64,000 bases of DNA from Latilactobacillus sakei subsp. sakei DSM 20017 = JCM 1157 (GTDB lineage: Bacteria > Bacillota > Bacilli > Lactobacillales > Lactobacillaceae). Positions 6,050 through 60,340 of this stretch are shown piece after piece. A program made the translations under genes and the position numbers. The notes under the pieces are model-generated. The model searched no databases. It saw nothing but the letters and a program-made list of their open reading frames with translations, and was not told where the DNA came from. The stretch's first letter is position 1. The number at the start of each line of letters is the position of its first letter. The DNA is taken from positions 1,116,001 through 1,180,000 of the forward strand of contig NZ_AP017929.1 of assembly GCF_002370355.1 (NCBI RefSeq), written 5' to 3'.

Positions 6050-6059
6050 GTTGGTAGGA

Positions 6060-6083
6060 TTAAATCGCTTTGAAGGGCATGCT
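6060..6083 (-). repeat. Fragment of the structured repeat (5' arm only)
   Basis: On the minus strand this reads ATGCCCTTCAAAGCGATTTA, closely resembling the left arm of the repeat copies at 6089-6205 and 19345-19463, but no matching right arm follows. It looks like a truncated sixth copy directly beyond the complete one. Confidence 0.5.
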
Positions 6084-6088
6084 ATTTA

Positions 6089-6205
6089 AAACGTGCGTTC
6101 AAAGCTAACTTCTCCATCTTGCTACGTATTGCAAATAATCGACTAAAGTCGCTTACTCACAACACTATGCAAGTACTCGAAGTTAAACCACTTTGAAGGG
6201 CACTC
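6089..6205 (-). repeat. Structured intergenic repeat, copy C
   Basis: A 117-nt minus-strand element beginning GAGTGC and ending GCACGTTT. Outer arms TTCAAAG/CTTTGA, second arms CTTGC/GCAAG next to the conserved TACGTAG, and inner hairpin CGAC-ttta-GTCG. The first bases overlap the stop codon of the exonuclease gene, so the element forms the start of its 3' UTR, ahead of the terminator. It belongs to the same family as the copies at 10.8, 19.2, 19.3 and 60.2 kb. Confidence 0.7.
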
Positions 6206-6741
6206 TAGCCGATTATTTTCGTGACCTGTTTTAGTGGGTCTGTGCCAAACTCTTGTGCTTCTTTAATCAGAATTTTGGCGCATGCGATACTGTCAGCTAG
6301 TGCATTGTGGTGATTTTCGAGTGGAATTTCTAAGTTGGTACATAATGTATTTAACTTATGATTTTTAAATTGGGGATAAAGCCGACGACCAGTTGTTAAA
6401 GTGTCGAGGGCTAAATAGTGAGGTTCTGGGATGTCGTAGTGTTGGAGTGTGCTACGAAGGACACCGATATCAAAGGTCGCATTGTGCGCCACAACTAATT
6501 TTTGCGGTGTGAAAAAAGGTGCGATGTGTGGCCAAACTTGATCAAACTTAGGGGCTTGGGCCACATCATCTTCATAAATACCGTGAATCTGGCTATTACG
6601 GCTACTAAAATAAGTTTCGGGTTTAATAAGGGTGTAAAATTGATCGACAATTTGGTCGTTACGAACAACGACTAGTGCAATTGAACAAGCACTGTCGCGT
6701 TGACCATTGGCGGTTTCAAAATCCATTGCAACGAAATTCAC
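6205..6741 (-). CDS. DnaQ-like 3'-5' exonuclease
   Basis: 178 aa. The DEDDh exonuclease motifs are visible: ExoI AMDFETAN (D7, E9), ExoII VVAHNATFDIGVL, and ExoIII HHNALADSIACAKIL with the catalytic His and Asp. It is a stand-alone domain like those related to DNA polymerase III epsilon; the target (DNA proofreading, repair or RNA) is unknown. The convergent side carries repeat copy C, which begins within its stop codon. It lies 35 bp downstream of exoA on the same strand, so the two repair-type nucleases may be co-transcribed. Confidence 0.9.
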   Translation of the reverse strand: MNFVAMDFETANGQRDSACSIALVVVRNDQIVDQFYTLIKPETYFSSRNSQIHGIYEDDVAQAPKFDQVWPHIAPFFTPQKLVVAHNATFDIGVLRSTLQHYDIPEPHYLALDTLTTGRRLYPQFKNHKLNTLCTNLEIPLENHHNALADSIACAKILIKEAQEFGTDPLKQVTKIIG

Positions 6742-8640: not shown

Positions 8641-10755
8641 ATGGCTATCATTGAAGCTGTTATTTTGTTAGTGATGCTGTTGATTGTCGCTAATATCATC
8701 GGTCACTATGTACCACGACTACCGGTCAGCCTGATTGAAATTGGGTTGGGCTTGCTGGTGGCACTACTTTTTTCAGTTGAGATTCCATTAAAAACAGATT
8801 GGTTTATGTTAGTGTTTGTCGCGCCGTTGTTGTTTAACGACGGCCGCCGGTTTCCTAAAAGGGAATTATGGGCGCTGCGAGGACCGATTATTGGAAACGC
8901 GATTTTCTTAGTATTTGTCACTACATTGATTGGGGGCTTAGCGATTCATTTGCTAGTGCCTAAGTTGCCATTGGCGGCGAGTTTTGCGTTAGCCGCTATT
9001 TTATCACCAACGGATCCGATGGCGGTCCAGTCGATTTCAGAACAAGCTGACTTGCCGCCACGTGTTTTACATTTGGTTAGTGGCGAAAGTTTAATTAACG
9101 ATGCCAGTGGCTTGATTAGTTTTAAATACGGGATTGCCGCTGCGGTAACTGGCTACTTCTCGATTCAACAAGCTGCCGGTGATTTCTTATACATCAGTAT
9201 CGTTGGCGCAATTGCTGGGATGTTGTTGATGTATGCAATTCATTTTATTCGACTGTTTATGTTGCAACAAGGGATTGAAGATGTTGTTTTCCACACCGTC
9301 TTGCAGTTGATTACCCCCTTTGTGATTTATCTAGTGGTTGAAGATTTACTCCATGCCTCAGGTGTGATTGCCGTGGTTGTGGCTGGGATTATTAGTCACG
9401 CAAGTCGCAATATTTACTTGGATTATTTACCAGAATTAAAATTAGTGACGGAACAAACTTGGTCGATTGGTGTTTATTTATTGAATGGCCTTGTCTTTTT
9501 AATCTTAGGGATTGAATTACCAGTTGCGATGAGGGGGACGGTGCATAGTCCACTGATTAATACGGGAGAAGAAATTCTCCTGGTATTAGCGGTTTGGGGA
9601 ATTCTAATTTTAATTCGAACCTGTTGGACATTAAGTTACTTGTTGTACACCAACAAATCGAATCCGAAGCAATTAAAAGATAACCTTAAAATTTCAGTCC
9701 TTTCAGGGCTTTCAGGTGTGCGAGGAGCCATTACGATGGCCGGGGTGCTTTCTGTACCGACTGTGCTTGCTGATGGGTCACCATTTCCAGAACGCGGTTT
9801 AATGCTATTTATTGCAGCCGGCGTTATTATCGTTAGCTTGGTGATGGCGATTATCTTTATCCCAATATTAACTAAGGTGAGAACGCCGATTGAATTACGG
9901 GGGACTGCCCACGAAGATACAAATGATGAGACAGGACTCGTACCAGTTGATGATCAACTGCTGAGTGAATTTGATGCCAAAATCTATATGTATCGTGTGG
10001 CAGTTGGGACGGTTGAATCGCTGCGTCATATTGAAAATAATCGGGCGGCACTAGATTTAATTGCTGAATATCAACTGATGATGCGCCGTTTTGAAAATCA
10101 ACAAAATGAGCAGACAGAAGGCGATGAATTACCACCGTTGATTGCAGAAGAATTAATTTTGCGGCAGGTTGCCTTTGAAGGGGAACGGCAAAAATTAGAA
10201 ACATTGCGGTCTGATGGTGAAATTACGGCCAAAACTTACCGTCGTGGTAAACGGAAATTACGGCAAAAACAAATTGCTTTGTCGGTGATTGGCAGTAATT
10301 TCAGTTGGCGTCATGTCCAATTGATGTTTTATAGAGGTTTGACGATGTTGAAGCGATTGATAGCGAGATTAAAGACATCGCAGAAATCGACAGCGGCGCT
10401 CACTGAATGGCGAACGACCGAAAAGGAAATGGCTAAAGCGGGCATCAAACAACTGTCGTATTTCTTGAAACAACCTGAGAACCGGCAGCATCATTATAAC
10501 CGGCAAGTTATTTATCAAATTATTATTCGTTACCGGAATCAAATTGAAAATATGAAAAATATCGGCCATACGAAGACGGATATTTACGAACAACAACTAC
10601 AAAAATTACGAATCAAGGCGCTAACGAGTGAACGACTTGCGATTCAAGAATTATTGGAACAGCATAAGATTTCATGGGGATTGGCGGATGAGTTACGCAA
10701 AGATATTAACTACGCTGAAAACGCGTTGATCTTGGCGGACACGGATACGGAATAA
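8641..10755 (+). CDS. Na+/H+ antiporter, CPA1 (NhaP) family
   Basis: 704 aa. About 12 membrane helices occupy residues 1-425, with the CPA1 motif SPTDPMAVQSI near residue 121 and SGESLINDASGLISF near residue 145, which include the ion-binding Asp residues. Residues from about 430 onward form a large, charged, alpha-helical cytoplasmic domain rich in Arg, Lys and Gln. It probably exchanges Na+ or K+ for H+ and serves pH/sodium homeostasis. It has its own terminator and sits between murB and the convergent YfhO gene. Confidence 0.92.
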   Translation: MAIIEAVILLVMLLIVANIIGHYVPRLPVSLIEIGLGLLVALLFSVEIPLKTDWFMLVFVAPLLFNDGRRFPKRELWALRGPIIGNAIFLVFVTTLIGGLAIHLLVPKLPLAASFALAAILSPTDPMAVQSISEQADLPPRVLHLVSGESLINDASGLISFKYGIAAAVTGYFSIQQAAGDFLYISIVGAIAGMLLMYAIHFIRLFMLQQGIEDVVFHTVLQLITPFVIYLVVEDLLHASGVIAVVVAGIISHASRNIYLDYLPELKLVTEQTWSIGVYLLNGLVFLILGIELPVAMRGTVHSPLINTGEEILLVLAVWGILILIRTCWTLSYLLYTNKSNPKQLKDNLKISVLSGLSGVRGAITMAGVLSVPTVLADGSPFPERGLMLFIAAGVIIVSLVMAIIFIPILTKVRTPIELRGTAHEDTNDETGLVPVDDQLLSEFDAKIYMYRVAVGTVESLRHIENNRAALDLIAEYQLMMRRFENQQNEQTEGDELPPLIAEELILRQVAFEGERQKLETLRSDGEITAKTYRRGKRKLRQKQIALSVIGSNFSWRHVQLMFYRGLTMLKRLIARLKTSQKSTAALTEWRTTEKEMAKAGIKQLSYFLKQPENRQHHYNRQVIYQIIIRYRNQIENMKNIGHTKTDIYEQQLQKLRIKALTSERLAIQELLEQHKISWGLADELRKDINYAENALILADTDTE

Positions 10756-10797
10756 AAAGACGTTCAGGCAAAATTAATTTTGCCCGAACGTCTTTTT
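10754..10797. terminator. Bidirectional terminator between antiporter and YfhO genes
   Basis: AAAAAGACGTTC and its complement with an inner GGCAAAAT/ATTTTGCC stem, T-rich on both sides. It serves the antiporter gene and, after repeat copy E, the convergent YfhO gene. Confidence 0.85.
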
Positions 10798-10821
10798 ATT
10801 CTGTTTAAATATGATTTGTCT

Positions 10822-10937
10822 AAACGTGTTCTATAAGTCATATTCCTGTGGTTAACGCCGAACGACGAATAATTGCTAACGCAATTATCCGCCGCTCTCT
10901 GTTAATCCTCAGAATATACCCGACTTATACCACACTC
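10822..10937 (-). repeat. Structured intergenic repeat, copy E
   Basis: 116 nt on the minus strand, beginning GAGTGT and ending ACACGTTT. Outer arms GTGT..TATAAGTC pair with GACTTATA..ACAC; second arms GATTAAC/GTTAAC; inner hairpin ATAATTGC-gtta-GCAATTAT. The arm sequences differ from the other copies but remain complementary. It begins about 8 bp after the YfhO stop codon and ends before the terminator. Confidence 0.7.
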
Positions 10938-10944
10938 TTCTTTT

Positions 10945-13560
10945 TTAAAATAATCGTCTTCTTCTAAAATAGCGCGTTATAATCGCAATTAAGATTGCCA
11001 TTAGTCCTGATACCACTGAGATTAGAAGCCCTAGTTTGAAATAAGGTGGCCGGTAAGTCAGTTCAATTTGGTGATGACCCGCTTTTAATGGAACTGCGAT
11101 GAAGTTCTTGAGCCCTTTGACTGCTTTTACGGGGTGGTTATCGACCGTTACTTGCCAGCCAGGGGCATAAGGAATCGTCGTCATTAAGACCTGATCCTTG
11201 TGCTTGATCGTGATATCACCGCTGATATGGGTATTTGAAAAGTGTTTGATGTGTAACGGTGATTGTTTTAATTGCGTTGTAATCTTGCTTAATGTTTCCA
11301 AGTTAAGACTGTAGAGATTGATGTTTTGAAGCCAAATTTCATCCTTTGAAAAGGCGATGTCTAACGTCTGTGGTTTCCCGAGTGCCTTGTTAGTCAAGTT
11401 AAGTGCAACCGTATCTCTAAAGGTATCGTATTGCGTAATCGGTTGACCGTTTAACGTCAAGCGCACAGCATTCTTCTCGAGACTTGAGCCCAGTGTTAAA
11501 TAGTAAGGGTCATTCGTCGTCGGCGTGAAGGTGTAGGTCACGTGCGCATCTTTTTTAGAATTAATGCGGAGGAAGGTTTCGTTTAACTTCGGTTTTTGTT
11601 TAGTATTTTGATAAGAAACGGTGTTGAAATATTGAAGGGTAAATAATTGATTGCCAAGTGTTGGATTATCCGTTAGCTTGGTTGCAATGTTCCCCTGTTC
11701 AAGAATCGGATAGTCCGCCGTGACTTTATGCTTAAGCACTTTATCAGAAGCCGCAAAACCGAGTGGTAACGCATTATCATTTTGATAAATAGCAATCTGA
11801 CCGTTTTGCTTGATTTGGCGATAGTCACTTAAATCGGGTTTGTTGGTACTGCGCGGCACGGTTGCTTGGACGCTGGTGCTGTTTAAATAATACCGATAAC
11901 TTAATAATGCATCAGTGAACATCGTTTGGTTGGTATCGGCAACGGAACCATCACCAGCAGGTTCACCGATACTACCCATGAATTTAGGATAGCTCGGTTC
12001 CAACATCGAATTAAAGTGAGAACCGCCGAAATAATTGGCTTGCATCGGATCATTTTTAGTCCGCATGAACGTTTTACCAATCCGTTGGAATGGGACCTTG
12101 TTAGGGACGGCGGCGATAGCTGATTGGAGTTGTTCAGTATAATCAGCGTAATCCTTTTGTGAAACGTAGCTAATTTGATTTAAGCTGAGAACTGCATTGG
12201 CGGTCATTTCGCCGCCGGTAACCAGTAATAAAAAGACGGTAGTATAGCGTTTGAAGCGTGCTGGCAACATTAAAATTAAGCTGACCGCGATTAAAAAACC
12301 AACGCTAAGGAGTACTTGTCGTTCAGATAACGCCGAAAATGTTTTGACGTGTTTGAAAGTATAAGCAAGTGATGCCGCTAGTAGTAAAAGTGGTGCTAGC
12401 AAACTGTACCACTTAAACTGTGGCTGATAATGCAATCGCTGAACAGCTAAGACAATTAGCCAGAAACTAATCACATAAGAGAAGCGATAAGGGTACCAAA
12501 CTGGGAATTGCATGCCGTGCCAGAGTAAATCGAGTGGTTCAAAGCACAGTGATAAGCCGAGAAAAGCAGTCACTAGTAATGCGGCCAGTCGTTCTTTAAT
12601 CGGAATGCTACGGGTTAGGAAATAGGCGATAAAACCAATTAAAACGAGACTGCCAACGAAAATGTTGGGTTCGCCTTTTGGCATCTGATCGAAATTGAAA
12701 TTCCCAACCACTAATTTAGAGAGGATTTTGAGGGGATTATATTCAATTTTCCAATGAATCTTTTGAATCGTATATTGGCCCTTACTTTGTGTTAATTGGA
12801 AGAAAGTCGGTAATAACAGCCAAGCCGCTAACAAGCCAGCTAGGATTGAACCACCGGCAAATTTGAGATAGGCGAGGCAAGTTTGGCGCCAAGTTTTAAA
12901 ATGATGGACACTTGCCCAGAAAAAATAAGCAATCACAAATAAACAAACCATGTAGCCCATATAATAGTTAATAATCAATAAGGCCGCTAAGCTAAGTGGG
13001 TATAACCAAAAACGATGGCGCTCAAAGAGTTGTTCGATGCCTAAAACGACTAGTGGCAACCAAATCATGGCGTCTAACCACATCACGTTAAATTGGTTGG
13101 CAATTGCAAAGCCAGATAATGCATAGGCTAGACTGAGTGTTGGCAGCCACCAACCACTTAGTAGACGACTTTTCTTGAGATAATAGGCAAAACTCAGCCC
13201 ACTAAAACCGTATTTGAGCAATACCATGAGCCAAACGCCAAAGCTCAACCATTTACCGGGCGTCAATAAGACGAGTAGGTTAAACGGGCTCATTAAATAG
13301 TAGGCCCAAACGCCGAGCATATCACCGCCAAGTCCCTTGGCAAATGAATAAAAGAAGGTATCGGGATGCTGAAGTAAGGTCGTTCTAAAATAGGCAAAAA
13401 AATCGATGTATTGTTGCCCTAAATCAACCGTCATAATTGTTTGTCCGCCAAACGGAAAGACGTGGCGACTTAAGCCATAAATAAAAATAATGGCAAAAGG
13501 AAGTAAGAAGCTAAGGCCTAATGCGTAGTGGCGTCGTAAAAAAGTGTATAATCGAGTCAC
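10945..13560 (-). CDS. YfhO family multispanning membrane protein
   Basis: 871 aa. The first ~480 residues contain a dozen or more hydrophobic helices and the YfhO hallmark QYIDFFAYFRTTL.HPD near residue 50. The last ~380 residues form a long extracytoplasmic region with WQVTVDNHPVKAVKG, ending in one more helix and a basic RRRR tail. YfhO proteins in Firmicutes are GT-C-like and have been linked to glycosylation of teichoic acids or to polytopic envelope glycosyl transfer; a precise substrate is inference only. It is transcribed alone, divergent from the PBP gene. Confidence 0.85.
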   Translation of the reverse strand: MTRLYTFLRRHYALGLSFLLPFAIIFIYGLSRHVFPFGGQTIMTVDLGQQYIDFFAYFRTTLLQHPDTFFYSFAKGLGGDMLGVWAYYLMSPFNLLVLLTPGKWLSFGVWLMVLLKYGFSGLSFAYYLKKSRLLSGWWLPTLSLAYALSGFAIANQFNVMWLDAMIWLPLVVLGIEQLFERHRFWLYPLSLAALLIINYYMGYMVCLFVIAYFFWASVHHFKTWRQTCLAYLKFAGGSILAGLLAAWLLLPTFFQLTQSKGQYTIQKIHWKIEYNPLKILSKLVVGNFNFDQMPKGEPNIFVGSLVLIGFIAYFLTRSIPIKERLAALLVTAFLGLSLCFEPLDLLWHGMQFPVWYPYRFSYVISFWLIVLAVQRLHYQPQFKWYSLLAPLLLLAASLAYTFKHVKTFSALSERQVLLSVGFLIAVSLILMLPARFKRYTTVFLLLVTGGEMTANAVLSLNQISYVSQKDYADYTEQLQSAIAAVPNKVPFQRIGKTFMRTKNDPMQANYFGGSHFNSMLEPSYPKFMGSIGEPAGDGSVADTNQTMFTDALLSYRYYLNSTSVQATVPRSTNKPDLSDYRQIKQNGQIAIYQNDNALPLGFAASDKVLKHKVTADYPILEQGNIATKLTDNPTLGNQLFTLQYFNTVSYQNTKQKPKLNETFLRINSKKDAHVTYTFTPTTNDPYYLTLGSSLEKNAVRLTLNGQPITQYDTFRDTVALNLTNKALGKPQTLDIAFSKDEIWLQNINLYSLNLETLSKITTQLKQSPLHIKHFSNTHISGDITIKHKDQVLMTTIPYAPGWQVTVDNHPVKAVKGLKNFIAVPLKAGHHQIELTYRPPYFKLGLLISVVSGLMAILIAIITRYFRRRRLF

Positions 13561-18739: not shown

Positions 18740-19153
18740 ATGTTTGTAATCGGGACAATTAATCCAATGTTTGTTGTTAATATTATCTTGATCGCTATTT
18801 TGTTATGGATAATTGGCGTGTGGGTTTACTATAAAATCCAACGTAAGCGTCTAGGCGGCGAACTGACTGAAAAGGCATTTGAAGAAAACATGCGTAAAGC
18901 CCAAATCGTTGATTTGCGTGAACGCAAGGATTTCGATGCTGGCCATATCTTAGGTGCTCGGAGCATTCCTTACCCAATGTTGAAACAAAACATGGGTGAA
19001 TTACGAATGGATTTGCCGGTCTACCTCTATGATACAGGCATTACATTAAGCGTTCGTGCAGCATTAAAACTTCGCAAAGCAGGTTTTACGAACGTTAAAT
19101 GGCTCCAAAAAGGTTTTAACAACTGGACAGGAAAAACAAAACGTAAAAAGTAG
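18740..19153 (+). CDS. Membrane-anchored rhodanese-like protein without active-site Cys
   Basis: 137 aa. One N-terminal helix (about residues 10-30) and a cytoplasmic rhodanese domain with IVDLRERKDFDAGHILGARSIP and GFNNWTGK. In active YqhL-type proteins the loop is VYxxCxSGxRS; here it reads VYLYDTGITLS, so the catalytic Cys is replaced by Asp. It therefore cannot act as a classical sulfurtransferase and may be a regulatory or binding domain. It follows glcK by 24 bp and is the last gene of this operon. Confidence 0.85.
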   Translation: MFVIGTINPMFVVNIILIAILLWIIGVWVYYKIQRKRLGGELTEKAFEENMRKAQIVDLRERKDFDAGHILGARSIPYPMLKQNMGELRMDLPVYLYDTGITLSVRAALKLRKAGFTNVKWLQKGFNNWTGKTKRKK

Positions 19154-19161
19154 ATTAAAAA

Positions 19162-19207
19162 AAGACCCAAAAGTCGCCAGTGAAAAACAGCAGACTTTTG
19201 GGTTTTT
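19162..19207 (+). terminator. Terminator after the rhodanese-like gene
   Basis: GACCCAAAAGTC pairs with GACTTTTGGGT..., followed by TTTTT. Confidence 0.8.
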
Positions 19208-19217
19208 ATATGAAAAA

Positions 19218-19336
19218 GAGTGCTTTTACCGCTTGGTCAGCTTTTGAGCATTAACCTAGGGTGACGAATTAGCGATGTAATCGCTAGTTTGGCACACGTA
19301 GTTAAGCACAGAAAGCTAGCGATAAAAGTACGTTTC
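19218..19336 (+). repeat. Structured intergenic repeat, copy A
   Basis: 119 nt from GAGTGC to ACGTTTC. Outer arms GTGCTTTTA.CGCT with AGCG.TAAAAGTAC; second arms TTAAC/GTTAA flanked by CCTAG and ACGTAG; inner hairpin TTAGCGAT-gta-ATCGCTAG. First of two tandem copies in a 371-bp convergent gap. Unlike the other loci it lies beyond the upstream gene's terminator. Confidence 0.7.
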
Positions 19337-19344
19337 AAGAAAAA

Positions 19345-19463
19345 GAGTGCTTTTCAAAGCGATTTGATTCTGAGCATTTGCCTAGTATCGTGAATAAACG
19401 ACGCTAGTCGATTGTTTGCGGTACGTAGCAAAGCACAAGAGGCAGCTTTGAAAAGCACGTTTC
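19345..19463 (+). repeat. Structured intergenic repeat, copy B
   Basis: 119 nt from GAGTGC to CACGTTTC. Outer arms GTGCTTTTCAAAGC and GCTTTGAAAAGCAC are perfectly complementary (14 bp); second arms TTTGC/GCAAA beside TACGTAG; inner stem ACGAC-gcta-GTCG. Begins 127 bp after the start of copy A, in the same orientation. Confidence 0.75.
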
Positions 19464-19466
19464 AGC

Positions 19467-19507
19467 ACAAAAAAAGACGCCACCCACAAAAGCAGGTCAA
19501 CGTCTTG
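19467..19507 (-). terminator. Terminator of the DUF3042 gene
   Basis: On the minus strand AAGACGT and GACC pair with GGGT..CGTCTT, followed by seven T. Confidence 0.6.
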
Positions 19508-19524
19508 TGATCATCTTTAATCGC

Positions 19525-35769: not shown

Positions 35770-35842
35770 TGGACCCGACCAGATTCGAACTGGCGACCTC
35801 CTACATGCGAAGCAGGCGCTCTCCCAACTGAGCTACGGGCCC
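35770..35842 (-). tRNA. tRNA-Ala (CGC)
   Basis: 73 nt cloverleaf read on the minus strand. Acceptor stem GGGCCCG/CGGGTCC, with G3:U70, the alanine identity pair. D-arm GCTC-AGTTGGGA-GAGC, anticodon stem CCTGC/GTAGG with loop TTCGCAT (anticodon CGC), T-arm GCCAG-TTCGAAT-CTGGT. The 3' CCA is not encoded. It stands alone, not in an rRNA or tRNA cluster. Confidence 0.93.
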
Positions 35843-44403: not shown

Positions 44404-44770
44404 GGGGCCGTTACGGATTCGACATGTGTAGGTGAGCGTGAATTGCACTTCGTAGGTTACGTCTGCGTTAACAACGTTACAGTTAATTATAACTGCAAAC
44501 AATAACAATTCTTACGCTGTAGCTGCCTAAACACCAGCATAGCGTGATCCGCCTGACTTCACCCAAGGGTTAGATCCGGGTCTCAAATTAATTGGGTTAC
44601 GTTAAATGCCGCCGTTTGAAGTGTTTAAAAGAGATTTTCAAACTAGTTAGTCCATCCGAGCCTCTGTTGAACGGCGTTTTGGGCTAGCGAATTTCTAAAT
44701 AGTTCGACTATGAGTGTAGAGATTGACGTGGCAATGCGCATGGACGCGGGTTCAACCCCCGCCGGCTCCA
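44404..44770 (+). ncRNA. ssrA: Transfer-messenger RNA (tmRNA)
   Basis: About 367 nt. The tRNA-like ends are GGGGCCG at the 5' end and a 3' T-arm GGGTTCAACCCCCGCC ending GGCTCCA. The tag reading frame starts at GCA near 44494 and encodes ANNNNSYAVAA followed by TAA, a typical lactobacillus degradation tag. Rescues stalled ribosomes with SmpB. Confidence 0.96.
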
Positions 44771-44786
44771 TTGGATAAAACAAGGG

Positions 44787-59724: not shown

Positions 59725-60243
59725 ATGTCAATCAACTTTAAAGATTATGTCGCAAGTGTTCCGGATTTTCCGGAGGCTGGCGTTACTTTTCGTGATATCT
59801 CACCTTTGATGTCCGATGGTGAAGCATACGCAGCAGCAACGGATAAAATTGTTGAATACGCTAAGAACAAAGGCGTTGAAATGATCGTTGGCCCTGAAGC
59901 CCGGGGCTTTATTGTTGGCTGCCCGGTTGCTTACAAATTAGGTGTCGGTTTTGCACCTGCTCGTAAGAAGGGTAAGTTGCCACGCGAAACAGTTTCAGCT
60001 AGCTATGGTTTAGAATATGGTAAATCAACATTATATATGCATAAAGACGCGGTTAAACCAGGCCAAAAAGTCTTAGTAACAGATGACTTATTAGCAACCG
60101 GTGGCACAATTGCCGCAACAATCAAAATGGTTGAAGAACTAGGTGGTATCGTTGTTGGGACAGCCTTCTTCATCGAATTGAAGGACTTAAACGGCCGTGA
60201 AAAGATTAAGGACTATGATATTTTCAAATTAATGGAATACTAA
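59725..60243 (+). CDS. apt: Adenine phosphoribosyltransferase
   Basis: 172 aa. Salvages adenine to [18 protein letters not shown] near the start, [14 protein letters not shown], and the PRPP motif [13 protein letters not shown] at about residue 118. recJ-apt is a conserved pair in lactobacilli. Followed by repeat copy D and the lexA terminator. Confidence 0.97.
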
Positions 60244-60247
60244 TAAA

Positions 60248-60326
60248 GAAGTGCGCCATCAACAGGTTGCTTTTGAACATTTGACTGATATAGCAAAGTG
60301 CAGAAAGTAGTTGATGAAAGCACGTT
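60248..60326 (+). repeat. Structured intergenic repeat, copy D (short form)
   Basis: 79 nt from GAAGTGC to GCACGTT. Outer arms GTGC..CATCAAC pair with GTTGATG..GCAC; TTTTGAACATTTG and TATAGCAAAGTGC correspond to the conserved inner boxes, but the inner hairpin is missing. It starts about 5 bp after the apt stop codon and precedes the terminator. Confidence 0.6.
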
Positions 60327-60340
60327 AAAGAGAAACAGAT

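Follow-up and report, generated by a model that had tools for sequence, protein, structure and literature searches.

A structured, putatively mobile repeat family at stop codons in Latilactobacillus sakei and other Lactobacillaceae

Repeat units in the 64-kb window

The window analyzed here is a stretch of 64,000 nucleotides from Latilactobacillus sakei subsp. sakei DSM 20017 (contig NZ_AP017929.1, positions 1,116,001 to 1,180,000). It harbors five copies of a hairpin repeat that had been listed in a sequence-only reading; all are present, at most 1 nt from the coordinates given there, and a covariance model of the family found these five units and no further one in the window at E<=0.01. Units A (19218..19335, plus strand, 110.8 bits) and B (19345..19462, plus strand, 105.6 bits) form a head-to-tail array in which A comes first, with an A-rich spacer of 9 nt between them (19336..19344, plus strand). 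Unit A is an exception to the stop-codon rule described below, lying 64 nt 3' of the stop of a rhodanese-like gene, and is preceded by a hairpin that by eye resembles the terminator of this gene. Its orthologue in the sister genome G001 is 97% identical; in the alignment to that locus (L305) G001 carries A only, unit B being absent.

Unit C (6089..6205, minus strand, 91.6 bits) begins at a distance of -1 nt from an exonuclease-like gene (6205-6741, minus; Pfam RNase_T), the first G of the unit completing the TAG stop of the gene. A fragment of about 25 nt directly after C (6058..6082, minus) resembles by eye the 5' arm of a second unit and is not a model match. Unit D (10822..10937, minus strand, 92.4 bits) starts 7 nt past the stop of a YfhO gene (10945-13560, minus), whose closest relative among the matches listed is that of L. 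fuchuensis (79%). Unit D is followed by a linker (10801..10821, minus), a diverged form of the type AGACyATnAAtATTCGGATATC, and by a terminator-like hairpin (10753..10797, minus) with apical GCAAAATTAATTTTGC and a T-run. Unit E (60249..60327, plus strand, 54.1 bits) is a short, atypical copy without the inner helix, found 5 nt past the stop of a gene with a phosphoribosyltransferase domain (59725-60243). Compared with dinucleotide shuffles, the folding z-scores are -6.4 for A, -6.6 for B, -5.7 for C and -10.0 for D (no shuffle out of 200 did as well), and -3.0 for E (2 of 200 did). The window also contains a tmRNA gene (44404-44773, Rfam RF00023) and a tRNA (35770-35842, minus).

Family size and arrays in the chromosome

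The family search started with blastn of the genome with units A and B, which gave 54 places; a subsequent nhmmer search, covering the window and 30 of these loci, yielded 62 matches, one of them a chimeric overlap. A covariance model (R1) was then built from 53 copies. Running such a model on the genome had been proposed together with the sequence-only reading, and it gave at least 149 matches. From 236 model matches, 161 non-overlapping units remained once antisense shadows, truncated pieces and duplicates from overlapping stretches had been dropped; 154 of them score 60 bits or more. They sum to 18,492 nt, or 0.95% of the 1.94 Mb chromosome, and form 94 same-strand arrays of one (51), two (26), three (10) or four units (7). 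Neighboring units are placed head-to-tail in 67 cases and opposed in 6. The spacers between head-to-tail units are A-rich, with a length of 6-8 nt in 58 of the 67. At one locus (L024, chromosome 632833-633192), a unit is enclosed by two others that differ from it, are 98% identical to each other and have an exceptionally long inner hairpin.

A single array out of 94 starts in a stretch of 364 kb (chromosome 1255842-1620252), where about 18 were expected (P 4e-7, the stretch having been chosen post hoc). Since dnaA lies at 558 kb and the longest genes flip from plus to minus between samples at 1.42 and 1.48 Mb, this array-poor stretch is probably the terminus region. Genes sampled there include the core genes for ATP synthase, RNase J, trigger factor and DnaG. 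The matches listed for the sister genomes G003 and G001, where copy numbers are lower bounds, likewise leave gaps of about 380 kb.

Structure and covariation

A unit corresponds to a single long hairpin, irregular and about 116-118 nt in length, whose ends are sharply defined, (R)AGTGC...GCACGTTW. The arms are variable but complementary, and the unpaired motifs are conserved. Three nested stems had been drawn from the window copies, and five helices were found. From the base, GTGC/GCAC is followed by an outer helix of variable sequence, a bulge of 4-5 nt on the 5' side and a middle helix; inward of this there are an asymmetric loop (GA versus RCA), a five-pair helix, a CTA/GTA loop and a long wobble-rich inner helix, the loops having been assigned by eye. 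Sequence boxes once described as fixed are frequent but not invariant, as TGAGGATT and CGAGTACT occur too and CCTAG is present only in a subset. A kink-turn was considered for the GA/RCA internal loop and rejected by eye, because the tandem G-A register fails in copies where CAAG replaces CAGA.

The earlier observation that the arms differ yet remain complementary extends to the 53 copies of the genome aligned with MAFFT, in which 31 of 39 pairs changed on both sides. In this alignment, 93.7% of 2,061 cells are paired, against 72.6% in shuffled and at most 45.4% in slid controls. The covariation score was 0.640 against 0.251 +/- 0.009 in shuffles, none of 500 reaching 0.640, and at most 0.128 when the partner was slid by 1-3 columns. 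Kinship among copies inflates covariation counts, but the slid controls share that inflation. Covariation in excess of both the shuffled and the slid controls supports the interpretation as selected structure. The outer helix is the weakest, with 78.6% of cells paired, partly because the register shifts among copies.

Wobble pairs give information about the strand. G-U/U-G and A-C/C-A pairs occur at 218:30 in the MAFFT alignment (90:30 without the four wobble-richest pairs), and at 527:55 in a model-fitted alignment of 143 distinct copies, where G-U at columns 57:93 is kept in 124 of 143. With a double-stranded cruciform as the selected form, the two classes should be similar, so the G-U excess points to the sense strand and hence to RNA. 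Where the sequence-only reading had left RNA or cruciform DNA as options, this strand bias favors RNA, or single-stranded sense DNA, over the cruciform. The statement that the copies are not the result of recent copying is correct for most, which have diverged, but not for units 97-99% identical that sit in different arrays.

Placement at stop codons

Relative to the unit, the genes flanking the 94 arrays are oriented ++ in 49 cases, +- in 31, -- in 14 and -+ in none; thus 0 of 94 arrays lie between divergent genes. Among the 80 arrays with a codirectional upstream gene, 70 begin at most 14 nt from the stop, where 23 are expected under uniform placement within the same gaps (P 8e-34). Overlap with the stop codon is frequent: the first base of the array is inside the stop in 19 cases, 16 of which are TAG stops completed by the first G of the unit, and the first two bases in 2. 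Gene ends were taken from our own six-frame caller (at least 60 aa), which was checked against annotation in L. curvatus alone. There, with the deposited annotation, 38 units were found in 22 arrays, 4 of 42 matches having been dropped as antisense shadows of units, and 18 of the 22 arrays start at an annotated stop, at distances from -2 to +2 nt. The genes anchored in this way include rnhC, ccpA, mutS, groL, rpiA, pepV, trmB and those for glucosamine-6-phosphate deaminase and MutS2. Of the four exceptions, one is a three-unit array between divergent cvpA-family and rnhC genes, one consists of two units located before cysS, and the other two are on an 18-kb plasmid.

The two units just upstream of cysS (L270 20981-21220) represent a 5' leader case. 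In the equivalent gap of DSM 20017 (L201 1977-2690, about 777.8-778.5 kb of the chromosome), four units are located directly 3' of a T-box leader, and this cysS leader array counts against a 3'-end reading.

The stop rule is obeyed by 33 of 39 codirectional arrays (45 arrays in total) in the sister genomes G001 and G003, where the loci are best-scoring matches rather than random ones and many sites are orthologous to those of DSM 20017, so that they are not independent. In other genera it is obeyed by 31 of 38 codirectional arrays (56 in total), again at best-scoring and not random loci, with 8 of the 56 arrays belonging to one orthologous Levilactobacillus site; this count excludes weak matches in L101, L109 and L124, the composite L089 21190-21366, and L077.

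Linkers and terminators after arrays

An ad hoc pattern detected 21 units with a linker of the type described for unit D, and missed others, such as those at 902477 and 1063379. By eye, a terminator hairpin follows the linker clearly in 17 of the 21 and partially in 2, and is absent in 2; its commonest apical sequence is GACAAAA..TTTTGTC. The motif GACAAA..TTTGTC occurs within 110 nt 3' of 30 of the 94 arrays, and some terminator-like hairpin within the same distance of 63. At L189/L078 the linker remains with the terminator though the last unit differs. A directly attached T-run, a feature of intrinsic terminators, was not found on the units, which end in GTTT/A followed by A-rich sequence.

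Distribution among Lactobacillaceae

Model matches are present in at least 131 of 301 sampled genomes and at least 20 of 40 genera of Lactobacillaceae. Copy numbers and genome counts across genomes are lower bounds, with the stricter filters of Infernal above 40 genomes. Each of four genomes of other genera has at least 68-88 matches, with a model built on Latilactobacillus. At E<=0.05 there are 28 matches in 19 of 80 named loci, each at most about 22 kb long; the 19 belong to Loigolactobacillus, Levilactobacillus (including brevis), Agrilactobacillus, Liquorilactobacillus and an uncultured Lactobacillus. One gap was compared in 19 Levilactobacillus-type loci: it measures 69-80 nt and is without a unit in 6, holds units in 8, and in 5 has other inserts of 243-523 nt with no model match. 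No match was found in the phage collection; in the plasmid collection three L. curvatus records match, one of them of 592 kb with housekeeping genes. Two matches in one (G046) of 23 genomes from other families of the order were not counted, as the one examined lacks the terminal motifs.

Two variants were observed in other genera. The Loigolactobacillus unit L089 21190-21366 has about 60 extra apical bases and is a possible composite or larger relative. In Levilactobacillus (L119 16096-16590 and orthologues), the unit is followed by a conserved tail, RGAGGCCGCmAGTTTCCGGA...CCTAA, which is repeated within the array.

Movement and orthologous sites

There are 82 unit pairs with at least 90% identity, of which 6 to 8 lie inside one array. 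Units 479121 and 1739871 are 99.1% identical, in different arrays and with unrelated flanks. In near-identical pairs from different arrays the identity ends at the first and last base of the unit, save in pairs that share a linker or a similar neighboring unit. Judged from such alignments, the units move singly. G001 has a unit 5 nt past the stop of the gene for ribosomal protein L7/L12, and DSM 20017 has none at that site; the G001 flanks are 90-99% identical to those of DSM 20017 where mapped. No donor was found for this unit among the units compared, the best relative being 87% identical, and its site fits a TTT duplication or none. No clear target-site duplication was seen, with a weak excess at 7 nt (40% against 37%, z 2.25), one of several lengths and offsets tried.

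Unit number differs in 14 of 20 orthologous arrays when G001 and G003 are compared with DSM 20017, and in the orthologous array 799612 two units are in swapped order. Deletion between short repeats at the unit ends can explain some losses. Of 45 arrays in G001 and G003, 32 mapped to loci of DSM 20017. A unit is present at 22 of these, the first units are full-length in 20, and identity is at least 75% in 10; the target set consisted only of DSM 20017 sites with units, and the proportion of common sites is not derivable from it. The 10 orthologous first units have stem changes at 43/868 and loop changes at 31/292. With pairs taken from the fold of the DSM 20017 unit, 38 pairs changed: 22 keep pairing by a one-sided change and 2 by a two-sided change, and 14 are broken. 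These changes may be read as modest support for selection after insertion, not as proof. At groL, DSM 20017 and L. curvatus keep by eye a seemingly orthologous long inner hairpin with several paired changes, and the outer stem differs.

Proposed role and alternative explanations

The reading that we prefer, with somewhat better than even confidence, is that the units are non-autonomous mobile elements of Lactobacillaceae that are active as RNA, serving in mRNA as a stop-codon-anchored 3'-end module. Structure, sense strand, location at the stop codon and movement as a unit are the parts of this reading that derive directly from the sequence comparisons. We infer the function, as well as transcription, action on mRNA and insertion at TA/TAA-A-rich sites. 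In transcripts, units would form the beginning of the 3' UTR, or lie between operon genes where a terminator is absent, and the hairpin would act in cis on its own mRNA. A ribosome arriving at the stop codon would have to open the lower stem; after its departure, the closed hairpin, flush with the reading frame, may slow or mark termination and would leave nucleases no free 3' RNA. The effect would grow with additional units. Insertion of new units probably takes place at TA/TAA-A-rich sites, and such a site is recreated by the unit end (GTTT-AAA), which would explain the arrays. The sequence-only reading was right about structure as far as it went; mobility, head-to-tail arrays and stop anchoring were not visible to it.

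Several observations count against an mRNA module: 14 of 94 arrays in DSM 20017 are antisense to both flanking genes, 10 of the 80 codirectional arrays are more than 14 nt from the stop, and 3 of 56 arrays in other genera lie between divergent genes. Orthologous stops can, in addition, be without a unit. A purely selfish element without host function, its fold serving its own copying and the 3' ends of genes being the least harmful insertion sites, is possible if somewhat doubtful. Dispersed near-identical units, a patchy presence in 20 of 40 genera (a lower bound) and differing orthologous sites all suit it, and in the part of their work used here Croucher et al. interpret pneumococcal repeats in this way (PMC3049150). 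Tolerance alone, however, predicts a spread across the whole 3' region, whereas 70 of 80 arrays start within 14 nt of the stop with 23 expected, and where pairs changed in place between orthologues, pairing was more often kept than lost (24 of 38). It is rather unlikely that what matters is single-stranded DNA folded for recognition by a recombinase, in the manner of REP/RAYT or integron attC sites, with RNA being incidental. DNA would likewise tolerate a G-T pair on a single strand. A recombinase would also fit the sharp ends of the units and their head-to-tail arrangement, and GTAG REPs, too, frequently provide the TAG stop of the adjacent gene, according to the sections of PMC3733652 considered. 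But a Y1 transposase is missing from DSM 20017 and G001-G004 (G005 has a sub-cut-off fragment), Y1 genes were found in genomes with and without units, and folding of DNA leaves the same-strand rule relative to genes unexplained.

Matching changes might also be mutational and not selected, if template switching in a palindrome copies one arm onto the other; the arms do change jointly and stay complementary, and at groL two species seem to share an orthologous inner stem, with a different outer stem in each. We consider this very unlikely, since arm copying of this sort would remove bulges and wobble pairs, and the units have retained both internal loops and, in 124 of 143 copies, one particular G-U pair. 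That the units are transcription terminators or attenuators is hardly tenable. Terminator-like hairpins do occur within 110 nt downstream of 63 of 94 arrays, but these are separate from the units, which end in GTTT/A and A-rich sequence with no longer T-run, and a scan detected no terminator hairpin at 20 of 49 arrays between codirectional genes.

A broader version of the RNA-based reading, which we regard as improbable, may be formulated as follows. The element would be selected as RNA, its structure and loop motifs kept while the arms are rewritten in concert, and insertion would be coupled either to the end of translation or to the replication fork, which would bring units to stops in gene direction and keep them out of the terminus-proximal fifth of the chromosome. 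The array at a stop codon would then be a tunable, inherited setting of the mRNA.

Small interspersed repeats are usually recognized by a conserved sequence; here the arms vary and the structure is kept. The family is without an Rfam entry although it makes up about 1% of the genome and occurs in at least 20 of 40 sampled genera of the food-relevant Lactobacillaceae. Because arrays of 0-4 units occur naturally at a given stop in related genomes, it can be tested directly whether such repeats affect the mRNA at all, and the sharp unit boundaries offer a handle on the spread of elements without a known transposase.

Comparison with known repeat families

A search against Rfam had been proposed as a check, and no family reaches its gathering score on the units (whole window, Rfam 15). 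In a loose search (E<=5, 19150-19520), three sub-threshold matches touch A/B; the best, NsiR1 (E 0.007), falls mostly on the terminator preceding unit A. At E<=0.1, only T-box leaders were found in L201 and L119, outside the units. No description of the family was found in Rfam or in the open-access literature searched, which was largely lactobacillus-directed.

Integron attC sites are hairpins beside stop codons, with structure rather than sequence conserved and head-to-tail order. In contrast to integrons, there are no cassette genes between the units, where spacers are mostly of 6-8 nt, and attC boxes were not noticed. Conserved terminal inverted repeats like those of MITEs from DDE transposons were not found either: the base GTGC/GCAC is shared, and the next seven-pair helix varies at every pair.

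The comparison with known repeats draws on parts of PMC3049150, PMC12306157, PMC3733652, PMC1590033, PMC12320835, PMC2267715 and PMC2817692. The family is similar to the REP/BIME elements of enterobacteria, pseudomonads and others, which are high-copy intergenic palindromes, mostly downstream of genes, many of them near or supplying a stop codon; location just downstream of genes is shared. In the passages used, GTAG REPs often provide the TAG stop of the flanking gene (PMC3733652), and E. coli REPs less than 16 nt from the stop are reported to lower translation (as cited in PMC12306157). As these sources portray them in part, REPs have 20-40 bp, a GTAG or CGTC end, oppositely oriented dimers and linked Y1 (RAYT) genes, whereas our units have about 117 nt, variable arms, the ends (R)AGTGC and GCACGTTW, and an ACGTAG that is internal and variable; neighbors are on the same strand in 67 cases and on opposite strands in 6. 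The Y1 transposase (PF01797) has 0 matches in DSM 20017 and G001-G004 and one sub-cut-off fragment in G005. As a mover of the units it was rejected, being absent from DSM 20017 and showing by eye no tracking with the units across genomes.

Pneumococcal BOX elements, and RUP and SPRITE, are likewise interspersed structured repeats in modular arrays. The part of PMC3049150 consulted describes BOX as boxA-boxB-boxC modules, with a stop codon encoded by the repeat in 36 CDSs and a distance to the nearest gene that follows a gradually decaying intergenic-length pattern; arm covariation and strict stop anchoring are not mentioned for BOX in that part. From a related lactic acid bacterium, E. faecalis, the portion of Cozzuto et al. 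2008 used here (PMC2267715) reports Efa-1, an intergenic stem-loop repeat of 163 nt with 65 copies, 18 of them complete, which was compared with our units by size and copy number alone; the Lac-1 stem-loop family of L. johnsonii, listed in the same paper, is inside genes. The family works like REP or BOX repeats but lacks three REP features that were tested. Since REP and BOX share placement at gene ends, with some copies supplying the stop, it belongs with them as a variant rather than forming a kind of its own.
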